From contig JAISSX010000057.1 in the NCBI GenBank assembly GCA_031272885.1, forward strand, positions 1 to 64,000: a stretch of DNA of 64,000 bases, read 5' to 3'. The notes beneath the pieces are model-generated. The model saw only the letters and a list, made by a program, of their open reading frames with translations. It was not told the origin of the DNA and did no database searches. Positions 51,549 to 64,000 of this stretch are shown here, piece after piece; the stretch's first letter is position 1, and each line of letters begins with the position of its first letter. The position numbers and the translations under genes are program-made. This DNA is from Bifidobacteriaceae bacterium. Lineage in GTDB: Bacteria > Actinomycetota > Actinomycetes > Actinomycetales > WQXJ01.

Positions 51549-52799
51549 TCACTTGTGCCGTCGAGTGGCCGCTGAGACCTTGAGCCATTCGGCTAGGCGG
51601 TCTTGAAACATGGCCCCTGCCTCCCGAAATGGAGCCAAATCGGCATCCGCTCGCACTTCCGCCAGCGCGCCGGGCAGCCGCCCAGCCATGTCGTTCAACT
51701 GCGACAGGACCCACTCGGGTTCCAGGCCAGCCTCTCGCGCGAACTGCTCCCAGTCCGCCCGGCCGATCCGGTCAAACCGAGTCTCGCCTCCAACCCGCAT
51801 CGCCATCTCGTTGGCGAAGTTGTGGCCAAAGGTAAGAGTCGAGTTGAGGTCATACAGCGGTGCCAACCGGACACTGCTAGGCGTGATCAGCAGGGAGTAG
51901 TTCTGGGCGTGCGCGTCCGACCCCCTGACCAGGTAGTTGTAGATCACGGCTTGAGCGAAACGCTCCACGTCAACCGCGCCGCAGTGCCGCCGGATCAGGT
52001 CAGCACAGGCAGAAGCGCCAAGGCCGCCCTGCGACTCGTACTTGCGCAGTGGCGCCAACCCGGCCACCTGGCACAGATTCTCTTGGTGAACCCGCACCCA
52101 CTGCCCCCGCACCTGGACGCGGTCGTAGCGTTCCACGACAATCACCCGTTGGCTTGCGAAAGCAGTCACGAACGCGTGGGCGGTGGCCAGGCCAACCTGG
52201 GCGGCCAGCCGCATCGACAACACTTCGGTCACGTCCTGATCTGCAAAGCCCGGAACGGCCGGTTTGAAGATGTGAGTGGAAGGCTGGGCGCCCGCCGGGA
52301 CGGCCCAGCCATCCCCCAGCCGCTGCAAAGCGAACTTGGCCTGGGCGCCAGCCAGCGAAAACTGGCCAGTAGCGGCTTCAACCGAAAACGGCAGCACATC
52401 CTGATAAGCCGCCCGAACCAGATCTGCCACCTCGGCTTCAGACAGGGGTTGTAGGTCACCTTCGCCCCGCAGCACGGACTCGAGTCGGTCCTTCCGAACG
52501 AACTGTGCAGCCCCGGCCACGTCTTCGCCGATATGCGCCAGCAAGCTCTCGGGATGCAGGTCAGTAATGCCAAATTGCGCCCGCCACCGGCGCAACACCG
52601 CCTCGCGTTCAGGCAGCAGTCCTTCCAGCCAATTGGCCACTCGGTCACCCCGCCACCTAGGCTGCGTAGCCGGCATGCCAGTAGACAACGGCACGAACTC
52701 AGGTTGCCCGATGGCGTCCGGGTAGTAGTACAGGCGCAGCCGCTTCCCCGCGCCCTCCAGGTCACCGATTACCTGTCCATTCAGCAGTACGGTCAACAT
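51549..52799 (-). CDS. hipA: HipA-family serine/threonine kinase toxin
   Basis: A 416-residue HipA-like kinase. The N-terminal subdomain resembles the couple_hipA region (LTVLLNGQVIGDLEGAGKRLRL). The Gly-rich loop with the autophosphorylated Ser is FSLAGAQAKFAL near residue 150; the ATP-contacting Lys is in THIFKP near 177. The catalytic loop is VRGSDAHAQNYSLL near 290, and the Mg-binding Asp is in LAPLYDLNST near 314. All key residues are kept, so it should be active. E. coli HipA phosphorylates glutamyl-tRNA synthetase; the target here is unknown. It follows hipB with a 10-nt gap on the same strand. Confidence 0.93.
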   Translation of the reverse strand: MLTVLLNGQVIGDLEGAGKRLRLYYYPDAIGQPEFVPLSTGMPATQPRWRGDRVANWLEGLLPEREAVLRRWRAQFGITDLHPESLLAHIGEDVAGAAQFVRKDRLESVLRGEGDLQPLSEAEVADLVRAAYQDVLPFSVEAATGQFSLAGAQAKFALQRLGDGWAVPAGAQPSTHIFKPAVPGFADQDVTEVLSMRLAAQVGLATAHAFVTAFASQRVIVVERYDRVQVRGQWVRVHQENLCQVAGLAPLRKYESQGGLGASACADLIRRHCGAVDVERFAQAVIYNYLVRGSDAHAQNYSLLITPSSVRLAPLYDLNSTLTFGHNFANEMAMRVGGETRFDRIGRADWEQFAREAGLEPEWVLSQLNDMAGRLPGALAEVRADADLAPFREAGAMFQDRLAEWLKVSAATRRHK

Positions 52800-52809
52800 G
52801 ACGGCCGCC

Positions 52810-53136
52810 CTATTCCCCGGGTCCGGGGGTGCCGGAGGGGTTGTGGGTGTAGCGGGCCAGGATTTCCTCCGCAGTGATCACCACAGGAGCCGATGCCCGT
52901 GACGCCGGCCGGAGCGTAGCCATGGGGTCGAGCGTGACCGATTGACCCAAGGCGGCCAAGACCCGCAACACCATGTCCAGTGGGGCGGAAACCTTGTCCC
53001 CTGCCTCCAAGCCAACCAGCCACTGGCGGCCCACCTTGGCGTCCATCGCCAGTTCGCCCTGGGACAGCCCCAGGTCCAGCCTGGCCTGCCGCATGGCTGC
53101 GCCCAACTGTCGCGCATCCCCCACTACTGTCGCCAT
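52810..53136 (-). CDS. hipB: HipB-family antitoxin
   Basis: A 108-residue helix-turn-helix protein of the XRE type: GAAMRQARLDLGLSQGELAM, then AKVGRQWLVGLEAG, within the first 55 residues, followed by a strand (VLAALGQSVTLDP) and a flexible C terminus. It should bind HipA and repress the operon. The ATG at 53136 lies 6 nt after a TATAGT box on the minus strand, so it is leaderless; the longer frame reads through the operator. A perfect TTGTCGCC/GGCGACAA palindrome just upstream is the likely operator. Confidence 0.92.
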   Translation of the reverse strand: MATVVGDARQLGAAMRQARLDLGLSQGELAMDAKVGRQWLVGLEAGDKVSAPLDMVLRVLAALGQSVTLDPMATLRPASRASAPVVITAEEILARYTHNPSGTPGPGE

Positions 53137-53142
53137 ACGACG

Positions 53143-53148
53143 ACTATA
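53143..53148 (-). promoter_or_regulatory. Leaderless -10 box TATAGT for hipBA
   Basis: On the minus strand TATAGT is followed by 6 nt and the ATG of hipB. Confidence 0.65.
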
Positions 53149-53153
53149 CAACC

Positions 53154-53173
53154 TTGTCGCCACCCGGCGACAA
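53154..53173. promoter_or_regulatory. Probable HipB operator
   Basis: TTGTCGCC (53154-53161) and GGCGACAA (53166-53173) form a perfect 8-bp inverted repeat with a 4-nt centre. It lies 5 nt upstream of the -10 box, where a repressor would block RNA polymerase. A partial TGTCGC..GCGACG-like site overlaps the start codon. Confidence 0.7.
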
Positions 53174-53243
53174 CAGCACCCACGGCAGCCTTCATGGTGT
53201 GCACCACGCAGGCCATGCGTTGGCTGTTGATCGGAACCCATAT

Positions 53244-54550: not shown

Positions 54551-55433
54551 CCGGTGCCTTGCGCCAGAGTGTACAACCGCTCCTCTTCATCGCTAATAAC
54601 CTGCTGCAAGGCCTGGCGCTTCGGATCATCCGCTGGAGCGTCGAACCCAATTCGAGGGTCCATTGCTTGGGTGTCGCCGCCCTCGCCATAAACATCCTGG
54701 GTCGCCATCAGGTTGCGTTCCAAGTTGATCGGGGGACACTGGGCCAGGACCTCTCGGAGAACTTCGATATCAGTTGACACAGGAACGACCACCTCTGGCA
54801 TGGTGTCCCAATTGTCTACGGCAACCACGGCGTCTTGAACATCCACAAGGCCGGCTTCACGCGCACACGTGGCCCACTCATTGGAAACCTCTGCCATCGC
54901 TTGCTTTTCTAGCTCTTCCTCCGCCGGATCAATAGAAGCGGTCGGCACAGAAAAGCCAGATGATTCAATGCAACCAACCAGGGTGTCTGTCAAGTCTTGG
55001 CCCTTGTAATACAAGAACGGAAGATCCTCATCCCACACGCGCAGCAGCGCATCACCAACCGCATCTGTGCCCTCCTGTGTGCCACCTCCAGTACTCCTTG
55101 GCAAGGCGAATACAGTAGCTTCTCCTTCCGACATCAGCACCTCAACCGTTAGGTAAGCCACATCACTTCCAGCCAGCATTCGTGGAGACAATTCCACTGC
55201 TACCCCGCTTCCTCGAGACAAGCTGCAAGTGCCTGCGCGCTCCCCGTCTGCTCCCCCAACGTGTCGGCTTCTTCCACCTCCGCCACGATGGACTCTCTCA
55301 ACTCGGCCACTTCCTCCGAACTCAACACCTCTGGTCTCAGTGTGGTGGCCTCGTTGACAGGCTCGCTCCCCGCCGCGCAAGAAGTCAACACGAGCACAGA
55401 AGCAACGCCAACGGCGACCAGGCAGCACCTCAT
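54547..55433 (-). pseudogene. Lipoprotein gene broken by a single-base frameshift
   Basis: The first frame (start ATG 55433) encodes a lipoprotein signal VAVGVASVLVLTSC and a helical part ending AALAACLEEAG-like, then stops at 55200-55202. The next frame continues without a break as VAVELSPRMLAGSDVAYL down to 54547. The switch is at a run of four G on the minus strand (55203-55206). One added G restores a single frame of 295 residues. The function is unknown; the C-terminal half is acidic and has two Cys. It may be a real mutation, a sequencing error in the homopolymer or a slippage switch. The leader is shared with the GNAT gene at 51216. Confidence 0.75.
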
Positions 55434-55545
55434 CCGCCCGTCGTGTCATGTCTCCCTCCAAGATGCCCCTTCTGAGCGACTCAGAAGGGGCGTCTCATGA
55501 GAGCAACGGCGCGGCGCGTGCAGCAGAAACACGGCCTTTGGGGGT
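55434..55545. repeat. Leader repeat, copy 2 (with perfect hairpin)
   Basis: Homologous to 51217-51325. Here the hairpin is perfect: GCCCCTTCTGAG and CTCAGAAGGGGC (55464-55490) around a 3-nt loop. It lies between the 3' end of the flavoprotein gene and the start of the lipoprotein gene. Confidence 0.7.
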
Positions 55546-56852
55546 TAGCCGGCGACGGTGCCGCTGTTGGCGGCCGGTTCGCGCAGTCGCGAATAGAAGC
55601 CCAGCGACACCTCGCGGCCGGTCTTGCGGCCCAGGTAGGTCACCGGCGTGGCGTCGTGGTCAACCCCGGCGCCCACCGCGTCGATGATGCTCAGCATGAA
55701 CTCGCCGATGATGGGCCCATTCTTGAACTGGTTCCCCGAAGTACCGATTCCCACGAAAAACCCAGGTGCGTCCGTCTTGTCGTAGATAGGCGTCCAGTCT
55801 GAAGCCACGTCGTAGACCCCCACCACGCCGGCCGGCCGCGGCGGAATGGCCATCTCGGGGAAGCGCCGGGCAGCCCGCGTGACCTGCTTATCGAACAGCT
55901 CTTGGGTGCGGTTCATGTTCACCGCGTCAACGTCGCCTTCAACCCATTCCAGCACGTCACAGGCCGGTTCCGTGCCGCCGATGATCAGCGAACCGGACGG
56001 CTCGGGCCGCAGGTAGTAGCCGAGGTCTTGGTCCGCCACACAGTGCCCGATGCCGCCCGGCGGGTTGAATCCGGGCGGCGCCGCCACGGCGTGCACCTCT
56101 TGGCGCAGCGGCCGGGTGGTGATGGCGAACTCGCCACCAACTCCGGCTAGTTGGTTGACCACGGGCGACCAGGGCCCGGCGGCGTTGACCACCACCGGCG
56201 CCTCCACCGTCTCGCCCGAATCGAGCCGCACCCGCCACACGCCGTCGGACCCCTGCTCAATCCCGATCACCCGGGTCTTGTACAGCGTCACCGCGCCGGC
56301 CCGCTTGGCCGCGTTGGCAAAGTTCTCGCAGGCCAGGCGGGGATCGTCGATGAAACCGGCCTCCGGCGTGAAGATGGCACCAAGGGTCCCGGAAGGGTCA
56401 TCCCAGAAGTGGTCATCGTCAATCGGCTTGGGCGGGAAGAACTTGCCCGGGTCGATCCCGGGAATCCGCGCCGCCAGCGTGGCCGAGTCCCACTCTTCAT
56501 ACTGGATGCCGATGTCGTCGAAGTATCCCCGCAGCCGTTCGCGCGGAAAGGCGGGCGCGTCAACCATGATCTTGCCCACCTGGTGGAACTTGGCCAGGGC
56601 CTCGTCCGCCGGCGCCTCCAGGTAGTCGCGCAGGTGGCGCCACATCTCGGCCGCCTCCCAGGCCACGATGACCGAGGTCAGCACGGTGTACTCGTAGCGG
56701 ATGATGCCACTGGAGGAACTGGAGGAGCCGTATCCGGCGCCGTTCGACTTGTCGATCAGCACCACGCGCCGGCCGTGTTTGGCCAACTGGTAGGCGGTAG
56801 ACGAGCCGACAATGCCGGCCCCGATCACGATGGCGTCGGTGGTGATGGTCAT
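55545..56852 (-). CDS. FAD-dependent amine oxidoreductase (DAO/sarcosine-oxidase type)
   Basis: A 435-residue flavoenzyme. The dinucleotide-binding motif is AIVIGAGIVGSSTAYQLAKH, ending VVLIDK. The SSSSSSGIIRYEY segment corresponds to the GSSxGxxRIIR loop of monomeric sarcosine oxidases. VVVNAAGPWSPVVNQLAG and the C-terminal GTSGNQFKNGPIIGEFM are typical of the DAO family. The expected reaction is oxidative demethylation of an N-methyl amino acid. It is the last gene of the Etf cluster, 32 nt after etfA, which suggests that it passes electrons to ETF rather than to oxygen. AAGGAG precedes the ATG by 8 nt. The substrate is not known. Confidence 0.9.
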   Translation of the reverse strand: MTITTDAIVIGAGIVGSSTAYQLAKHGRRVVLIDKSNGAGYGSSSSSSGIIRYEYTVLTSVIVAWEAAEMWRHLRDYLEAPADEALAKFHQVGKIMVDAPAFPRERLRGYFDDIGIQYEEWDSATLAARIPGIDPGKFFPPKPIDDDHFWDDPSGTLGAIFTPEAGFIDDPRLACENFANAAKRAGAVTLYKTRVIGIEQGSDGVWRVRLDSGETVEAPVVVNAAGPWSPVVNQLAGVGGEFAITTRPLRQEVHAVAAPPGFNPPGGIGHCVADQDLGYYLRPEPSGSLIIGGTEPACDVLEWVEGDVDAVNMNRTQELFDKQVTRAARRFPEMAIPPRPAGVVGVYDVASDWTPIYDKTDAPGFFVGIGTSGNQFKNGPIIGEFMLSIIDAVGAGVDHDATPVTYLGRKTGREVSLGFYSRLREPAANSGTVAG

Positions 56853-56884
56853 GGCTCTCACTCCTTGGGTCTGGCTGCGGATGG

Positions 56885-57832
56885 TCAGGCGCCCGCCTGG
56901 ATGGCGGCCGCGGCGGCGGGCAGGAAGGCGCGCAGGTCACCCACCAGCCCCAGGTCGGCAATCTCGAAAATGGGCGCGTCCGGGTCTGAGTTAACAGCCA
57001 CGATCAGCTTGGCGCCGCGCATGCCGGCCTGGTGCTGAATGGCCCCCGAAATCCCGGCCGCCACGTACAGCGCCGGCGTCACGGTCTTGCCGGTCTGGCC
57101 CACTTGCAGCGAGTGGTCCACCCAGCCGGCGTCCACGGCCGCGCGGGAGGCGCCGATGGCGGCCCCCAACGCATCGGCCAGCGCCTCCACCTGGCTGAGG
57201 TCGCCGTCCACGCCACGGCCGGCCGCCACCACGATCTTCGCCCCCAGCAGGGCGGGCCGGGCGCCATCGGCCGCCTTCGGGGTCACCGACACCACGGTCA
57301 CCCGCGGATCGGGCGCCGGCAGCGCCACGCTCGAAACTTCGGGTGCAGCCACCGGCGCCGGCGCCGGGGCCTCGGCACCGGGTGCCACCGTGAAGATCGG
57401 CACCCCAGCCGTCACCCGCGCCGTCGAGGTGGCCGTCCCGGCCATGACCGGCTTGGTCGCCACCAGGTCGGGCCCAATCGCGGTCACGCCGGTAATCACG
57501 CCGCTGCCCAGGGCTTCGGCCAGTAGGCTGCCCACCTCGGCGCCGTACAGGCCGCCGGGCAGCAGCACGGCGGCCGGCGGTTGCGCCAGCCCTTCCGCCA
57601 AGGCCGCCAGCGCCTGGGCGATGGCGCCCGGGTAGGCGTGGGGGGCGGCGCCGGCCGGGCCGGTGGCGGCCACCACGCGGGCAGCCCCCAGCGCGCCAAG
57701 AGCACCCGCATCGGGCGCACCCGCACCTTCAGCCCCCACCACGACAGCGACCGGCTGCCCCAAGCCCGCGGCCAGCGCCAGCAGCCCGGCAGCCTCCGCC
57801 GGCGCATCGATCAGCACCAGAATCTCGGCCAT
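56885..57832 (-). CDS. etfA: Electron transfer flavoprotein, alpha subunit
   Basis: A 315-residue FAD-binding subunit that carries electrons from flavin dehydrogenases to the membrane. The N-terminal domain ([20 protein letters not shown]) is Ala-rich and divergent. The C-terminal FAD-binding domain has [12 protein letters not shown] near residue 200, then [41 protein letters not shown] and [20 protein letters not shown], all hallmark motifs. It starts 15 nt after etfB. It lies between etfB and the amine oxidoreductase on one transcript. Confidence 0.96.
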
Positions 57833-57847
57833 CGTCCGTCCCCTCCC

Positions 57848-58636
57848 CTACACCAGGCCGGCTTCGCGCAGCAGGCCAATGAACTGCCCGATGGCGTCCG
57901 GGCCATCCGCCGGAATCTTGCGGCCGCCGGCCCGCGGCGGGTTGGGTGTCACCGACCCCACCGCCACCCGGGCCGCACCGGCGCCCACCAGCGAGGCATC
58001 AACCCCAAGGTCCGCTAGGTCCAACTCGTCGACCGGCTTGCGCCGGGCCAGCATGACGGCCTTGGCGGACGGATAGGCCGGTTCGTTGGCCTTGTCGGTG
58101 ACCGAAACCAAGGCGGGGAGCGGTGCGCTCAGGGTCAGCGTGGCGGCGTCTTCGTCGCGCTCGATCGTCACCGCTCCCCCACCAGGTTGAACCGCCAAGC
58201 TGGAGGCGCCGGTCAGAGCGGGAATCCCGAGCAGCGCAGCCAACTTGACGGGGACTAAACGGGTACCGGAATCGGCTGATTCCGCCCCCGTCAAAATCAG
58301 GTCGACGTCACCGATGTGGGTGATCGCCTTGGCCAGCACCAGGGCGGTGGCGCCGGCATCGGACCCGGCCACGGCCGGATCGGAGACATGGAAGGCGGCA
58401 TCGGCCCCCATCTGCAGGGCCCGCCGCACGGCTTCGTCGGCGTCATCGGGCCCAAGGGTCAGGGCGATCACTTCCACGTCGTCAAGTGCCTCGGCCAACT
58501 GCCGGGCTTCCTCCAACGGGTGCTCGTCCAACTGGGACAACAGGCCGGCACCGCTGCGGTCCAGGGTGTTCTGCCCGGTGAACTCGTAGCCGATCTCAAT
58601 GTCCGGCACGTACTTGACCAGCACAACTATCTTCAT
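57848..58636 (-). CDS. etfB: Electron transfer flavoprotein, beta subunit
   Basis: A 262-residue partner of EtfA that binds AMP. It starts MKIVVLVKYVPD, with ANEPAYPSAKAVMLARRKPV as the family signature near residue 185, and LDEHPLEEARQLAEA early. The ATG overlaps the stop of the upstream FeS protein gene (ATGA), so the two are translationally coupled. This fits a direct electron path from EtfBA to that protein. Confidence 0.96.
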   Translation of the reverse strand: MKIVVLVKYVPDIEIGYEFTGQNTLDRSGAGLLSQLDEHPLEEARQLAEALDDVEVIALTLGPDDADEAVRRALQMGADAAFHVSDPAVAGSDAGATALVLAKAITHIGDVDLILTGAESADSGTRLVPVKLAALLGIPALTGASSLAVQPGGGAVTIERDEDAATLTLSAPLPALVSVTDKANEPAYPSAKAVMLARRKPVDELDLADLGVDASLVGAGAARVAVGSVTPNPPRAGGRKIPADGPDAIGQFIGLLREAGLV

Positions 58637-60774
58637 GGTGTTCCCTCTCCGGCAATCGACGCCAACAACAGTTGGGCCACATCCTTCACCTGGGTGCCGC
58701 TGCCAGAATCGGCCGCCACCGCGTCACCCAGCATGACGGCGCAGAACGGGCAGGCGGTGGCAATGGTGCCCGCCCCGGTGGCGGCGGCCTGGTCCGCCCG
58801 GCGCTGGTTGAGGCGCGTGCCTTCGGTTTCTTCCAGCCACATCCGTCCACCGCCGGCGCCGCAACAGACCGAGTTCGGCCCGGCGCTTGCCATCTCCGTC
58901 AACTCCAGGTTCCCGATGGCGCCCAACACCCGGCGCGGGGCCGCATACTTGCCGTTGTGGCGGCCCAGGTAGCAGGGGTCTTGATAGGTGACAGAAGGCT
59001 TGACCGAACGGCCGTGCGCGTCCAACGGCTCGTCCGGCAGGTCGCCGGGGGTCAGGCGCCCGGCCTCGACCAGATCGGCCAGCAACTCGGTGTGGTGCAC
59101 CACTTCGTAGTGCCCCCCAAACGGCCCGTACTCGCCCGCCAGCGAGTTGAAGCAGTGGGCGCAGGTGACCACGATCTTGGTGGCACCAGCCTGGTTCAAC
59201 ACTTCGACGTTACCCGCGGCCAGGTCACCGAACAGGGATTCGTTGCCGGCCCGCCGGGCCGGATCGCCGGTGCAACATTCGGCCGTGCCCAGCACGGCGA
59301 AACTCACCCCGGCCCGGTGCAACAGCTCGGCGAAGGCCCTGGCGGTGGCCTGGCCGCGGTCATCGAACGCCCCGGCGCAACCAACCCAATAGAGGTAGTC
59401 GACCTCGGCTAGCGAAGCCACAGTCTCGCCTAGCACCGGCACGTCGAAGTCCAATCCGGCCGTCCAGTCCAGCCGCTTCTTGCCGGGCAGGCCCCACGGG
59501 TTCTGGCGCCGCTCCAGGTTGCGGAAGGCGCCGCCCAGTTCGGCCGGGAATTCGGCCTCGCCCAGCACTTGGCGCCGGCGCAGGTCTATCACGTGGTCCA
59601 CGTGTTCCACACCCACCGGGCAGATCGCGGTGCAGGCGCCACAGGTGGTGCAGGCCCACAGGGCCTCGGGTGAAACGGCCCAGGGCGCGTCTCCGCCTAC
59701 CAGCGGGGTCGCGGCGTCCCCCATGGAACCGACCGGCCATTCCGCCCAGGCGTGGTCCCGCAGCGCTCCCACCAGCAGTTTTGGCGACAACGCCTTGCCG
59801 GTGGCCCAGGCCGGGCAGACCTCTTGGCAGCGGCCGCACTCGGTGCAGGTGGTGAGGGACAGCAGGTCGCGCCAGGTCAGTTCGGCGGCGTAGCCCACCC
59901 CCAGGTGTTCGTACACGTCATCGGGTGTGGCCGGGTCATTCAGATCGACCGCCTGGCCGCCCACCACCAGGGGTTCCAGGCCGCCCAGGGCGGGGGCGCC
60001 ATCGGGCCGCTTGGCGAACCACAGGTTGGGGAAGGCCAGGAAGCGGTGCCAGGCCACGCCCATGGTGGGCGTCAGCGACACCACCACCATCCAGGCGTAG
60101 CTGACCAGGATCTTGAACAGGGCCAGGCAGCCAATCCAGCCGTCCAGGGCCGCGTCCGTCACCCCGCCATACAGCGAACCGATCCACGCGGTTGACGGGA
60201 ACAGCAACTCCGCGCTGGCAGACTCAGCGCCACGCTCAGACAGCGCAGCCTCCAGCCCACGCAGCCACAGCACGGCCACGCAAACCAGCAGGATGGTGGC
60301 CTCCACGTAGCGGGCCCGCCATTGGTGCGAGCCGAAGAAGCGCGACCCGCGCCCCAGGGAAGCCCGCGAAGCCACCAGCCGCACCGCGATCAGCACCAAG
60401 ATCCCCAACAGGCCGGCCCAGGCGAAGAACTCGGTCAGCCAGGCGTACGGCGCGAAGTGACCGATCACCGGCAACTCGAATGAAGGCGAGAACAACTGCC
60501 CGGTGGCCTGGGCCAGCGTCAACACCAGCACCAGGAAGGACAGCATGGTCAGCCAGTGGGCCACCGCCACCAGGGGCTTGCGCCGCAGCCGGGTGTGGGC
60601 CAGGAACTCACGCAGCATGGTGGCCGTGCGGGCCCCGGGCCGCGCCGTCCGGGAACCCGGCAGTTCAGCCGCCCCCGCCCGGAAGCCGCGCACGTATGAA
60701 GTCACCCGCCAGGCCAGCAGCGACCAGCCCACCACCGTGGCCAGGAGCCCGATGACGGGCAGCGCATACCACAT
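58633..60774 (-). CDS. etfD: Membrane FeS protein, EtfD-like (ETF:menaquinone reductase)
   Basis: A 713-residue protein. Residues 1-250 hold about six membrane helices of the NarI-like type with His residues suited to heme ligation (VAVAHWLTMLSFL). Near 310 and 385 are two 4Fe-4S motifs, CTECGRCQEVCP and CTTCGACTAICPVGVEH. Two cysteine-rich CCG domains follow: VGCAGAF...AECCTGDPARR...CAHCFNS, and DPCYLGRHNG...VCCGAGGGRMW...CPFCAVML. The layout matches M. tuberculosis EtfD (Rv0338c), which feeds ETF electrons to menaquinone. AGAGGAG precedes the ATG by 6 nt. Fused to etfBA by overlap. An 83-nt gap separates it from glxD. Confidence 0.9.
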   Translation of the reverse strand: MWYALPVIGLLATVVGWSLLAWRVTSYVRGFRAGAAELPGSRTARPGARTATMLREFLAHTRLRRKPLVAVAHWLTMLSFLVLVLTLAQATGQLFSPSFELPVIGHFAPYAWLTEFFAWAGLLGILVLIAVRLVASRASLGRGSRFFGSHQWRARYVEATILLVCVAVLWLRGLEAALSERGAESASAELLFPSTAWIGSLYGGVTDAALDGWIGCLALFKILVSYAWMVVVSLTPTMGVAWHRFLAFPNLWFAKRPDGAPALGGLEPLVVGGQAVDLNDPATPDDVYEHLGVGYAAELTWRDLLSLTTCTECGRCQEVCPAWATGKALSPKLLVGALRDHAWAEWPVGSMGDAATPLVGGDAPWAVSPEALWACTTCGACTAICPVGVEHVDHVIDLRRRQVLGEAEFPAELGGAFRNLERRQNPWGLPGKKRLDWTAGLDFDVPVLGETVASLAEVDYLYWVGCAGAFDDRGQATARAFAELLHRAGVSFAVLGTAECCTGDPARRAGNESLFGDLAAGNVEVLNQAGATKIVVTCAHCFNSLAGEYGPFGGHYEVVHHTELLADLVEAGRLTPGDLPDEPLDAHGRSVKPSVTYQDPCYLGRHNGKYAAPRRVLGAIGNLELTEMASAGPNSVCCGAGGGRMWLEETEGTRLNQRRADQAAATGAGTIATACPFCAVMLGDAVAADSGSGTQVKDVAQLLLASIAGEGTP

Positions 60775-60857
60775 GACGGTCTCCTCTCTGCGCGGCGCCG
60801 GCGGTTAGTTAGGGGACGAGAAACAAGGTTGGATGGCTGACCTGGGCAATCGGCCGG

Positions 60858-62207
60858 TTACAGGCTACCCGCCAGGCCGGGAATCCATGAGGTCCCGGCC
60901 AAGGGCCGCTTGGTCATGGCGGCGGCTTCGATGGTCAGGGCCACCAGGTCCTCGGGTTCCAGGTGCAGCAGGTGGGCCTTGCCGCAGGCCCGGGCGATGA
61001 TCTGGGCCTCCATGGTCATGACCCGCAGCAGGTTGGCCAGGCGGTGGCCGCCGGCCACCGGGTCCAGCCGCTTGGACAGTTCTGGGTCTTGCGTGGTGAT
61101 GCCGGCCGGGTCCTGCCCGGCCTGCCAGTCGTCGTAGTAGCCCGCCGAAGACCCGATCTTGTTGTATTCGGATTCCAGTGCCGGGTCGTTGTCACCCAGG
61201 GCGATCAGGGCGGCCGTGCCGATCGACACGGCATCGGCCCCAAGGGCCAGCGCCTTGGCCACATCGGCCCCTGAGCGGATGCCGCCGGAGACGATCAACT
61301 GCACCTCCCGGTGCATGCCGGCCTCCTGCAGCGCCTCGACGGCCTGCGGGATGGCGGCCAGCGTGGGGATGCCCACGTGTTCGATGAACACGTCCTGCGT
61401 GGCGGCCGTACCACCCTGCATGCCGTCCAGCACCACCGCGTCCGCCCCGGCCTTGATGGCCAGCATGACGTCGTAGTAGGGCCGCGAGGCGCCGATCTTG
61501 ACGTAGATCGGCTTCTCCCATTCGGTGATCTCGCGCAGTTCCAGGATCTTGATGCGCAGGTCATCGGGGCCGGTCCAGTCCGGGTGGCGGCAGGCCGAAC
61601 GCTGGTCGATGCCGACCGGCAGGGTGCGCATGGCGGCCACCCGTTCGGTGATCTTCTGGCCCAGCAGCATGCCGCCGCCGCCGGGCTTGGCGCCCTGCCC
61701 CAGCACCACCTCGATGGCGTCCCCCATGCGCAGGTGGCGCGGGTTCATGCCGTAGCGGCTGGGCAGGTACTGGTACACCAGCGTCTGCGAGTGGGTCCGT
61801 TCTTCTTCCGTCATGCCGCCGTCACCGCTGGTGGTGGAGGTGCCCACCTCGCTGGCGCCGCGCCCCAGCGCCTCCTTGGCCTGGGCGCTGAGCGAACCGA
61901 AACTCATGCCGGCAATGGTTACCGGCGTCTTCAGGTGCAGCGGCTTCTTGGCGTAGCGCGTGCCCAGCCAGACGTCCGTGTCGCAGCGTTCCCGGTAGCC
62001 CTCCAACGGGTAGCGGGACATGGAGGCGCCCAGGAACAGCAGGTCGTCGAAGTGTGGCACCTTGCGCTTGGCGCCGCCGCCGCGGATGTCGTAGAGCCCG
62101 GTAGCGGCCGCCTTGCGGATGGCGGCGATGGTCAGCTTGTCGAAGGTGGAGTTTTCCCGTAGGCCCTTGGCGGCGGGATCGGTCACAGGGCTGGTGGTGG
62201 TGGTCAC
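60858..62207 (-). CDS. glxD: FMN-binding glutamate synthase-like protein (GlxD/MgsC type)
   Basis: A 449-residue protein equivalent to the central catalytic domain of glutamate synthase. TPVTIAGMSFGSLSAQAKEAL, EVGTSTTSGDGGMTEEER, GQGAKPGGGGMLLGQKI, KIGASRPYYDVMLAIKAGAD and IVSGGIRSGADVAKALALGADAV all fit the FMN-barrel. The separate amidotransferase (GlxB) and GXGXG (GlxC) domains are encoded just upstream. In methylotrophs this triple makes N-methylglutamate from gamma-glutamylmethylamide or from methylamine and glutamate. The GTG start has GAGGAGA upstream. It is 15 nt after glxC. Confidence 0.92.
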   Translation of the reverse strand: MTTTTSPVTDPAAKGLRENSTFDKLTIAAIRKAAATGLYDIRGGGAKRKVPHFDDLLFLGASMSRYPLEGYRERCDTDVWLGTRYAKKPLHLKTPVTIAGMSFGSLSAQAKEALGRGASEVGTSTTSGDGGMTEEERTHSQTLVYQYLPSRYGMNPRHLRMGDAIEVVLGQGAKPGGGGMLLGQKITERVAAMRTLPVGIDQRSACRHPDWTGPDDLRIKILELREITEWEKPIYVKIGASRPYYDVMLAIKAGADAVVLDGMQGGTAATQDVFIEHVGIPTLAAIPQAVEALQEAGMHREVQLIVSGGIRSGADVAKALALGADAVSIGTAALIALGDNDPALESEYNKIGSSAGYYDDWQAGQDPAGITTQDPELSKRLDPVAGGHRLANLLRVMTMEAQIIARACGKAHLLHLEPEDLVALTIEAAAMTKRPLAGTSWIPGLAGSL

Positions 62208-62222
62208 GGTGGTCTCCTCGGC

Positions 62223-62918
62223 CTAGTAGGCGTCGACGTTGTCGATGTGGAAGTTGTAGAGCTGGCGGGCCGAGCCGTAGCGGCGGAACTCTTCCGGCTT
62301 CTCGGGGCGCCCGGCTTTGGCCAGCAGTTCGGCCAGCTCCTCCAGGTGTTCGGGCCGCATCTCCTTCTCGATGCAGTCCGCCCCCAGCGAGGACACCTGG
62401 CCCTTGACGTACAGCCGGGCCTCGTAGATCGAATCCCCCAGGCCGTCCCCGGCGTCGCCGCAGATAACCAGCCGGCCGGCCTGCGCCATGAAGGCGCTCA
62501 TGTGGCCCACCGAGCCGCCCACCACAATGTCGACGCCCTTCATTGAGATGCCGCAGCGCGCGGTGGCGTCGCCGTCGATGATGAGCAGGCCACCGTGGGC
62601 GGTGGCGCCGGCCGACTGCGAGGCGCTGCCGGTCACGTGCACCAGGCCGGACATCATGTTCTCGGCCACACCCTGCCCGGCGTTGCCGTTGATGGTGACG
62701 GTGGCCTGTTCGTTCATGCCGGCGGCGAAGTAGCCCACGTGGCCTTCCACCACCACGTCGATGGCCTGGTCTAGGCCAACGGCAATGGCGTGCGCCCCTT
62801 CGGGGTTGCGCACCACCCATGAAGTGCCGGCGGGCGCCTGGTGGAGGGTCTGGTTGAGGTCCCTCAGACTAGTGCCGGCGAGGTCGATGACGGTTGCTGA
62901 GCTGACGTGCGTTCCCAT
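62223..62918 (-). CDS. glxC: GXGXG-domain glutamate synthase subunit (GlxC/MgsB type)
   Basis: A 231-residue right-handed beta-helix protein, equivalent to the C-terminal domain of glutamate synthase large subunit. Successive turns hold the pattern VEGHVGYFAAGMN, INGNAGQGVAENM, SGLVHVTGSASQSAG, GGSVGHMSAFMAQAG and ICGDAGDGLGDSIYEA. The first ATG lies within the end of glxB, a 55-nt overlap in another frame, with a weak ribosome-binding site, so translation probably depends on glxB. It would scaffold the GlxBCD complex. Confidence 0.92.
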   Translation of the reverse strand: MGTHVSSATVIDLAGTSLRDLNQTLHQAPAGTSWVVRNPEGAHAIAVGLDQAIDVVVEGHVGYFAAGMNEQATVTINGNAGQGVAENMMSGLVHVTGSASQSAGATAHGGLLIIDGDATARCGISMKGVDIVVGGSVGHMSAFMAQAGRLVICGDAGDGLGDSIYEARLYVKGQVSSLGADCIEKEMRPEHLEELAELLAKAGRPEKPEEFRRYGSARQLYNFHIDNVDAY

Positions 62919-63808
62919 ACGTACACCACTTCCGGGTTGGGTTCGAAGATGTGAGCGGATTCGATGCCGGGCAGGCCGGTGAGGTAGCGGTATTCGCTGG
63001 CCACGGCCACCAGGTCAGGGGTTTCGGCCACGATGGCGGGCTTGCAGGCGATGGCGTCCCGCACAATGGCGAACGAGCTGGCGGATGACACCAGCAGGGT
63101 GTAAAAGCCGTCGAAGTGCTTGGTCAGGTCGGTCAGGGCCTCGCGCATGTCGGCGCCTTCGGCCAACCGGTGGGCGATGTACCGGGCGCCCACCTCGGTG
63201 TCGTTCAGCGAGTCGAAGCCGATGCCCAGCGCGGCCAGTTCCTTGCGCAGGGTTTCATGGTTGGAGAACGAGCCGTTGTGGATCAGGCACTGGTCTGGCC
63301 CCACCGAGAACGGGTGCGAACCACCGGGCGTGACGGCCGACTCGGTGGCCATCCGGGTGTGGGCCACGCCCTGCCAACCCGCGCGCCCGGCCAGGTTCCA
63401 CTGCTTGGCCAGTTCGGCCGGTTCACCGGTGCCCTTCAGCACGGTCAGGGTGTGGCCGGCCGAGATCACCACGGCTTCCGGCAGGGCTTCCCGCACGGCC
63501 GCCTCCAGCGCGGCGGCGGGGGCGATGGCGGTGAACACGGTGGTCTGACCGGCCCGTTCGGCTTCGACCGGCCCCAGCCCCTGCCCGATGGCGCCCACGG
63601 CAGCGGCCGCTTCGGCGGCCGGTAGGGCGTCATAAAGGGCCGAGACGGTGGCGGCGCCGTCTGGTAAACCCGCCGGATCGGCGTACAAGCCCACGCCGGC
63701 GGAGTCGTTGCCGCGCCCGGCGGCCTGGATTAGCATCCCCTCTAAAAGCGTTCCGAGGTGGGGAAATAGCTCCGGATTGCGAAGGTGAAGACCGGCAATG
63801 CCGCACAT
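62864..63808 (-). CDS. glxB: Class II glutamine amidotransferase (GlxB/MgsA type)
   Basis: A 314-residue protein that starts MCGIAGL, where Cys2 becomes the N-terminal nucleophile. RGNDSAGVGLY, GWQGVAHTRMATESAV, GGSHPFSVG and CLIHNGSFSNHETLR are the class II amidotransferase motifs. It would release the amine group from a gamma-glutamyl amide for the GlxD site. GAGGAG lies just upstream of the ATG. The 78-nt gap to the glutamine synthetase gene has a CCCCTCGGAG-type hairpin. Confidence 0.94.
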   Translation of the reverse strand: MCGIAGLHLRNPELFPHLGTLLEGMLIQAAGRGNDSAGVGLYADPAGLPDGAATVSALYDALPAAEAAAAVGAIGQGLGPVEAERAGQTTVFTAIAPAAALEAAVREALPEAVVISAGHTLTVLKGTGEPAELAKQWNLAGRAGWQGVAHTRMATESAVTPGGSHPFSVGPDQCLIHNGSFSNHETLRKELAALGIGFDSLNDTEVGARYIAHRLAEGADMREALTDLTKHFDGFYTLLVSSASSFAIVRDAIACKPAIVAETPDLVAVASEYRYLTGLPGIESAHIFEPNPEVVYVWERTSAQQPSSTSPALV

Positions 63809-63886
63809 TTTTGTCTCCTCTACAGCCCCTCCGGAGCCTCTCCGAGGGGGTTTCCTACGATGAACTACAGATTACTATGAGTGTCC

Positions 63887-64000
63887 TCAGGCCGTCAAGT
63901 ACCGCTCGATCTCCCACATCGAGATGGCATCATGCCAGGCGTAGAACTCATTCCGCTTCAACGTGGCGTAGTAGTCCGACACGCCAGCCGTGGGATCAAC
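63887..64000 (-). CDS. Glutamine synthetase family protein, C-terminal end only
   Basis: The last 37 codons of a gene that continues beyond the window. The sequence VSDYYATLKRNEFYAWHDAI then SMWEIERYLTA matches the extreme C terminus of glutamine synthetase-like enzymes, where the final WEIERYL helix is conserved. From its place before glxBCD it may be GlnT or gamma-glutamylmethylamide synthetase (GmaS); the visible part cannot tell these apart. Confidence 0.8.
   Translation of the reverse strand, partial: VDPTAGVSDYYATLKRNEFYAWHDAISMWEIERYLTA

Follow-up and report, generated by a model that had tools for sequence, protein, structure and literature searches.

A conserved GmaS-GlxBCD operon with an ETF-linked flavoenzyme in a Bifidobacteriaceae bacterium: a predicted variant of the N-methylglutamate-type pathway

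The N-methylglutamate pathway is encoded by the gene run gmaS-mgsABC-mgdABCD in Methyloversatilis, and by glnT, glxBCD and soxBDAG in rhizobia and in SAR11, where the available part of the published account assigns these genes to the pathway by homology (PMC3160333). Here we describe a related operon at one end of a 64,000-base stretch of DNA from a Bifidobacteriaceae bacterium (bases 1-64000 of a 265,396-base contig, hereafter the window). It shares with these systems a GmaS-type glutamine synthetase (GS) and the proteins GlxBCD (MgsABC), but in place of the four-subunit dehydrogenase MgdABCD it has a single-subunit flavoenzyme of the DAO class together with EtfA and EtfB, the two subunits of an electron transfer flavoprotein (ETF), and an EtfD-like membrane protein. 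A further comparable run is msmeg_6259-6264 of Mycobacterium smegmatis, which the accessible text of PMC4222082 annotates as amt1, glnT, GATase, FwdC-like, glutamate synthase and oxidoreductase, and describes as raised in nitrogen starvation via GlnR. The likeness lies in an ammonium transporter (Amt), GS, GlxBCD-like genes and an oxidoreductase under consecutive numbers, but the numbered run, as given there, includes no ETF or EtfD gene. The methylamine-using Mycobacterium strains 141 and 155, according to the part of PMC5023230 available to us, have gma-mgsABC and, elsewhere, homologues of mgdA-D.

The eight genes of the window operon lie head to tail on the minus strand, in the order GS, GlxB, GlxC, GlxD, EtfD, EtfB, EtfA and DAO from GS downstream (Table 1), with gaps, counted from DAO up to GS, of 23, 15, -4, 83, 15, -55 and 78 bases. 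Seven are wholly contained in the window as open frames at the tabulated positions, and these frames, the gaps of -55 to 83 bases and the family matches bear out a sequence-only reading that had noticed eight minus-strand genes with short gaps or overlaps. The GS gene is cut by the window edge, and its remainder was taken from the contig, where its open frame runs past the edge (L005:3887-5314; L-numbers denote loci or stretches and G-numbers genomes, the window genome being G000) and has its most likely start at an ATG at L005:5260, giving a protein of 457 aa. Divergent from GS, beyond the window, are genes for Amt (TIGR00836, over the cut-off) and an XRE/cupin regulator, both of which belong to the arrangement.

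The operon is real and conserved. Its gene content supports a new form of the N-methylglutamate-type pathway, the enzyme functions being predicted, and we lean towards the view that it serves an N-alkylglutamate (most likely N-methylglutamate) pathway for scavenging amine nitrogen, in which an ETF-coupled enzyme would have replaced the usual dehydrogenase. Methylamine is the likely amine in the window genome. The predicted steps are as follows: 1) Amt, a transporter that can carry methylammonium, would import ammonium or methylammonium. 2) The GmaS-type GS, judging from its family, tree position and residues, would ligate the amine to glutamate with ATP. 3) GlxBCD, a split glutamate synthase (GOGAT), would convert the gamma-glutamylamide to an N-alkylglutamate, as its likeness to the MgsABC sets suggests. 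4) DAO would oxidise the secondary amine to an imine, to be hydrolysed to glutamate and an aldehyde (formaldehyde from N-methylglutamate). 5) The electrons would pass from DAO to EtfAB, from there to EtfD and on to the quinone pool, for which the sequence-only reading had proposed menaquinone. In this family an ETF-coupled dehydrogenase would in this way fill the position that MgdABCD, an oxidase-type monomer or another DAO occupies in relatives.

The assignment of the GS is carried by several lines of evidence. The window protein scores 533.7 bits against TIGR03105 (cut-off 469.6) and only 237.9 bits against GlnA type I (cut-off 429.15); the remaining two GS genes in this genome both exceed the GlnA cut-off, at 648.9 and, narrowly, 433.0 bits. 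Its best solved relatives are RhGmaS (7cql) and a glutamate-methylamine ligase (9qur), and in a GS tree of 80 rows (a quick search without bootstrap, with several long branches flagged) these two group with it, split by a branch of support 99 from both GlnA proteins of the genome and from 8ool. Because RhGmaS joins the rhizobial Mgd-linked GS and 9qur joins the GS of Paraburkholderia and Acinetobacter, the lineage of the window GS is bracketed by methylamine enzymes. Among the methylamine-pocket and catalytic residues given for RhGmaS in the available part of PMC7948447, K30, Y147, D177, E179, E186, N188 and R312 are kept in all seven family GS. In both GlnA proteins of the genome D177 is replaced by His and K30 by Val or Phe, while Tyr147 and Asn188 of GmaS are each found in one of the two. 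Tree, residues and profile scores together rule out an ordinary GlnA, and the proposal of a gmaS-type enzyme, made from gene order and sizes, stood once the rest of the gene had been placed with the methylamine ligases.

The synthase genes follow in the MgsABC/GlxBCD order. GlxD is 77-83% identical over the best segment to the Mgd-linked GlxD of plasmids from Acinetobacter, Rhizobium, Sinorhizobium, Aminobacter and Thioclava, and 66% identical to that of a sixth Mgd-linked plasmid set, from Paraburkholderia; over the six sets GlxC is 61-68% and GlxB 42-44% identical. In two additional plasmid sets, L078 and L081, Mgd genes were not seen within their 19 kb. The Acinetobacter plasmid stretch (L075) combines Amt, a regulator, GS and GlxBCD with MgdC/MgdD-type genes, and insertion sequences are found among these genes and beyond the last of them. 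None of MgdABCD is among the genes of the window cluster. Genome-wide, MgdC was the only query, MgdA, MgdB and MgdD not being searched, and in the window genome it returned only a GcvT-like match (positions 670-979) and one short FAD-motif match. Over the 18 family genomes it gave partial GcvT-like or FAD-motif matches in 17, none of them spanning the protein, and no match in one. A copy of the dehydrogenase elsewhere in the genome was set aside on the failure to find an MgdC-like protein, the other subunits not having been searched, and to that extent the earlier claim that the four-subunit enzyme is missing holds.

The features that define an EtfD-type ETF:quinone oxidoreductase, namely membrane helices, two 4Fe-4S motifs and CCG domains, are present in the EtfD-like protein, in which five 19-residue hydrophobicity peaks were counted, along with two motifs each of the 4Fe-4S and CC kinds. 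A second ETF alpha gene of the genome lies in what reads, by sight, like a FixABCX-type operon. A cytochrome bd gene was found in the window genome and in 17 of the 18 family genomes.

The AlphaFold model of DAO (pLDDT 91.9, pTM 0.92) has as its best fold match by Z the L-proline dehydrogenase 1y56_B (Z 41.9, rmsd 2.4, 365 aligned), followed by glycine oxidase 4ysh_B (41.2), sarcosine oxidases (about 40), D-arginine dehydrogenase (38.8) and rat dimethylglycine dehydrogenase (DMGDH; 38.4), differences of less than 1 being taken as ties. Judged from sequence and model, the class is one that takes in enzymes for secondary or N-methyl amino acids as well as for primary ones. Dimethylglycine and sarcosine dehydrogenases, which act on N-methyl amino acids with ETF as acceptor, have the same DAO-fold dehydrogenase, but DMGDH (816 aa) has an extra C-terminal half that the window DAO lacks, and the latter sits with GS-GlxBCD. 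The window DAO scores far below the cut-offs for monomeric sarcosine oxidase (TIGR01377, 57.6 against 479.65 bits) and for the sarcosine oxidase beta subunit (TIGR01373, 34.1 against 529.45 bits).

In monomeric sarcosine oxidase (MSOX) Arg52 is the carboxylate-binding residue, Lys348 likewise serves the carboxylate and Cys315 carries the covalent flavin. In an alignment of 92 sequences, with the monomer aligned to solved MSOX, the window DAO keeps the carboxylate Arg and Lys (Arg55 and Lys380), which, like the fold, it has in common with monomeric sarcosine oxidase and N-methyltryptophan oxidase, but it differs from these in lacking the flavin Cys and the oxygen-activating Lys, although the exact column of Lys265 depends on the alignment. 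The Arg52 equivalent is present in five of six cluster DAO, the sixth being a fragment without that part, and the Lys348 equivalent in all six; Cys315 and Lys265 occur in 10/10 monomers and in none of six cluster DAO, 22 DAOp (a separate DAO type considered below) and 16 MgdA. Gly occupies the covalent-flavin position in all six cluster DAO. In MSOX the replacement K265M lowers oxidase activity, as reported in the available part of PMC7312611. Since the oxidase Lys and the flavin Cys are absent, DAO looks like a dehydrogenase, as a partner of ETF should, but so does its whole family.

The cluster DAO group with three paralogues from these genomes in a single clade (100), nested among actinobacterial DAO most of which have no such genes around them: 59 of 65 DAO loci are without the cluster, many of them on short contigs, with EtfBA 8 kb away in L040 and three weak single matches. 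Nine columns, including 52 and 382, near Arg55 and Lys380, set the cluster DAO apart from paralogues and stand-alone DAO; they are suggestive only. The paralogue of the window genome (G000:C59:170769-172061; L182:8761-10062) is 62% identical and lies beside a polar amino-acid ABC transporter, and those of G098 and G217 adjoin a transporter that reads, by sight, like an NSS symporter. Among plasmids, DAO matched 263 records, and one of them, from Pseudonocardia (52.5%), is without these neighbours in an incomplete gene table.

With GlxD presence called at E <=1e-120, and the window genome counted in every sample, GlxD was found in 16/396 genomes of the order, 44/394 of the class and 23/396 of the phylum, samples which overlap. 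In the family it is present in 10 of 18 genomes, and EtfD in exactly the same 10, the other eight having neither EtfD nor DAO at E 1e-20; the chance of an identical set would be 1 in 43,758 for independent genomes, which these are not. DAO was found in nine of the 18 and lies on the cluster contig in six of the 10 with GlxD, four contigs ending before it. Its gaps are a contig that stops in EtfA (G140), a fragment of only 78 residues (G182) and a closest DAO on another contig (G098, G154). All eight genes stand on one contig in four of the 10 (G000, G070, G022, G055), and the other six match the order as far as their contigs reach, so the gene order is not a product of chance. The co-occurrence of the eight genes, which the sequence-only reading had put forward as a check across actinobacterial genomes, is therefore present, within this one family. 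Among the 16 GlxD genomes of the order, EtfD adjoins GlxD in the 10 of the family and is separated from it by some 2 kb in G149; in G121, G135 and G201 it stands at another place in the genome, and at E 1e-60 G101 and G176 do not appear among the genomes with EtfD. Outside the family, none of 20 EtfD loci of the order is near GS, Glx or DAO and two are beside EtfBA, one locus being only 3 kb long; EtfD with DAO as a common block without Glx was thus rejected, none of the 20 showing it.

The neighbourhood of GlxD was compared over 76 loci: the window's own, 15 of the order, 40 of the 43 class matches and 20 phylum stretches. Companions were taken by tblastn within 9 kb of GlxD, at identities of >=40% for the two monomer types (DAOp and the sarcosine-oxidase-like one) and >=60% for the window DAO, with no limit for Mgd. 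They comprise DAOp in 22 loci, Mgd-type genes in 15 (only 26-28% identical in L173, L177 and L179), a sarcosine-oxidase-like monomer in 10 and, in the 10 loci of the family, EtfD-EtfB-EtfA-DAO. DAOp is a separate single-subunit DAO with L-proline dehydrogenase 1y56_B as its best solved relative, and starts within 90 bases of GlxD in 22/22; from gene order, msmeg_6264 is inferred to be of this type, as in L127. The monomer, which in L110 has its closest likeness to N-methyltryptophan and sarcosine oxidases but stays under both NCBIfam cut-offs, is the next recognised gene in nine of 10. Outside the family, a single-subunit DAO-fold enzyme is found <=9 kb from GlxD in 32/66 loci, and in 31 it is the next recognised gene. 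The suggestion that a DAO protein takes the dehydrogenase's place here must hence be divided: a single-subunit DAO in this position is not special, and what is special is this DAO with EtfD-EtfB-EtfA.

The GlxD tree, of 84 rows, has the family as one clade (100), adjoining L108 and L109, both of which have the monomer (85), and the GS tree agrees in placing it beside loci with the sarcosine-oxidase-like monomer (support 93). These placements suggest that an oxidase-type enzyme gave way to an ETF-type one in the family lineage. In L113, from another family, DAOp (28% identical to the window DAO) follows GlxD, and beyond a regulator there is EtfD-EtfB-EtfA in the same order as in the window; from this locus and L173, ETF genes adjoining such an operon may have arisen more than once. 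L173 itself has a divergent GS-GlxBCD set, a PuuD-like peptidase (by reading), a SoxB-like DAO, EtfD, a GcvT-like protein, EtfA and EtfB. An evolutionary scenario that we hold to be about evenly poised between right and wrong is that an ETF-coupled, folate-independent, single-subunit N-alkylglutamate dehydrogenase arose when a stand-alone amino-acid dehydrogenase was duplicated and then recruited, along with EtfB, EtfA and EtfD, to a GmaS-MgsABC operon. On this scenario the place beside mgsC in Actinobacteria would have been exchanged among at least four non-orthologous flavoenzymes, a quinone-linked dehydrogenase having taken over from an oxygen-using oxidase in the family.

A number of observations weigh against the reading of the operon as an ETF-coupled N-alkylglutamate pathway. 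The co-occurrence is confined to one family, and so is not phylogenetically independent; completeness is 67-77% for several of the genomes; EtfD is widespread in the order (105/396 genomes at E 1e-60); and in 19/76 GlxD loci, some on short contigs, no oxidoreductase was recognised. The absence of Cys315 and Lys265 is not specific to the cluster, as they are also absent from 35/35 stand-alone DAO and 3/3 paralogues, and the paralogues adjoin amino-acid or NSS-like transporters. By E-value, in fold as in sequence, the top match of DAO is D-arginine dehydrogenase, for which reason a primary amino acid is possible as its substrate. RhGmaS Gln175, in the amine pocket, is Ala in the family GS, that of the window included. 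The cluster holds no C1 gene, and mycothiol-dependent formaldehyde dehydrogenase, considered as a C1 sink, was rejected, none being over the cut-off in the 18 family genomes; any formaldehyde produced may be passed to folate or to another dehydrogenase. M. smegmatis, in the available text of PMC4222082, did not grow on 10 mM methylamine as nitrogen source. Bifidobacteriaceae, termite-associated genera included, are described in the accessible part of PMC11707648 as without respiratory metabolism, and if this holds for the family the quinone step would need another sink, though the cytochrome bd gene in 17 of its 18 genomes speaks to the contrary.

Some of these points lend themselves to other explanations. 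The same chemistry might act on ethylamine or another small primary amine, giving a different N-alkylglutamate for DAO to dealkylate; RhGmaS accepts ethylamine with a kcat equal to that for methylamine and a Km roughly double (available part of PMC7948447), and the M. smegmatis growth result, the formaldehyde dehydrogenase search and the Ala at 175 point the same way. Since that Ala is also found in 7/17 Mgd-linked GS, and methylamine is the amine for which the clade's solved ligases were assayed or after which they are named, we think this unlikely, if still deserving of attention; the contrast between M. smegmatis and Mycobacterium strains 141 and 155 indicates that the amine may differ between operons. 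It is quite improbable, in our estimate, that the genes form a GS/GOGAT set in which DAO deaminates an amino acid, GS and GlxBCD capture the ammonia and ETF/EtfD disposes of the electrons. The adjacent Amt, the rank of D-arginine dehydrogenase by E-value and the nearness of glycine oxidase by Z, the transporters beside the paralogues and the GlnR control reported, in the text available, for M. smegmatis would suit such a set, but the GS carries GmaS rather than GlnA residues, two other GS genes are already over the GlnA cut-off, GlxBCD is of the MgsABC type, and the enzymes that exchange in this position are sarcosine-oxidase-class flavoenzymes.

The operon might also combine two modules under nothing more than shared nitrogen control, GS-GlxBCD serving amines and EtfDBA-DAO an unrelated compound (sarcosine, dimethylglycine or proline, for example). 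That DAO and EtfD each occur alone (59/65 DAO loci without the cluster, 20/20 EtfD loci without Glx), and that the DAO fold class covers sarcosine and proline, would fit this arrangement, which we consider very unlikely nonetheless: other DAO-class enzymes occupy the place next to GlxD in most relatives, EtfD tracks GlxD in the 18 genomes, and, with no MgdC-like protein found, the pathway would be left without its last step.

If the ETF-coupled reading is true, the oxidative step of the N-methylglutamate pathway is modular, and the pathway can be coupled to a respiratory chain via ETF rather than through the four-subunit enzyme. It would also offer a testable function for the widespread actinobacterial run GS-GlxBCD-oxidoreductase, related to the nitrogen-starvation genes of M. 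smegmatis, and would suggest small amines as a nitrogen source for the window Actinobacterium. A literature search joining N-methylglutamate (or its dehydrogenase) with electron transfer flavoprotein gave no match, and a wider one no title on this gene arrangement, most subscription papers lying outside the coverage of both.

Table 1. Genes of the operon, with positions in the window
Feature	Position	Strand	Size and support
DAO, FAD-dependent oxidoreductase, candidate N-alkylglutamate dehydrogenase	55545..56861	-	438 aa; PF01266 194.6 bits
EtfA, electron transfer flavoprotein alpha	56885..57832	-	315 aa; PF00766 105.3 bits, PF01012 58.1 bits
EtfB, electron transfer flavoprotein beta	57848..58636	-	262 aa; PF01012 127.2 bits
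EtfD-like membrane iron-sulfur protein, candidate ETF:quinone oxidoreductase	58633..60774	-	713 aa; PF02754 CCG and 4Fe-4S domains
GlxD / MgsC-like FMN glutamate synthase domain protein	60858..62207	-	449 aa; PF01645 301.7 bits
GlxC / MgsB-like GXGXG protein	62223..62918	-	231 aa; PF01493 41.4 bits
GlxB / MgsA-like class II glutamine amidotransferase	62864..63808	-	314 aa; PF13522 and PF13537
GmaS-type GS, 3' end	63887..64000, gene on to ~65260 (L005:3887-5260)	-	TIGR03105, tree, residues

Scans for promoters and terminators over 55000-64000 gave nothing exceeding chance, and L005 has a single match to a GlnR-like site, fewer than the chance mean of 3.1 and not in the GS-Amt gap. Several further features were noted among the GlxD loci. 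In L122, L125, L126, L129, L131 and L135 a regulator directly follows GS-GlxBCD and no oxidoreductase was recognised, their close relatives L130, L132 and L136 having DAOp there. An M20 amidase accompanies 9/76 loci (L108, L109, L110, L120, L128, L139, L140, L142 and L146); that of L110 is over the cut-off for allantoate amidohydrolase (NF006770) and is also like N-carbamyl-L-glutamate amidohydrolase. Beyond the window, L005:7527-14219 encodes a protein of 2230 residues, with a hydrophobic tail and numerous repeats that resemble one another, by sight probably a surface protein. Within the window, the genes at 51549-53241 read, by sight, like a HipA (416 aa) and its XRE partner, and a similar pair is found at L183:114-1789.

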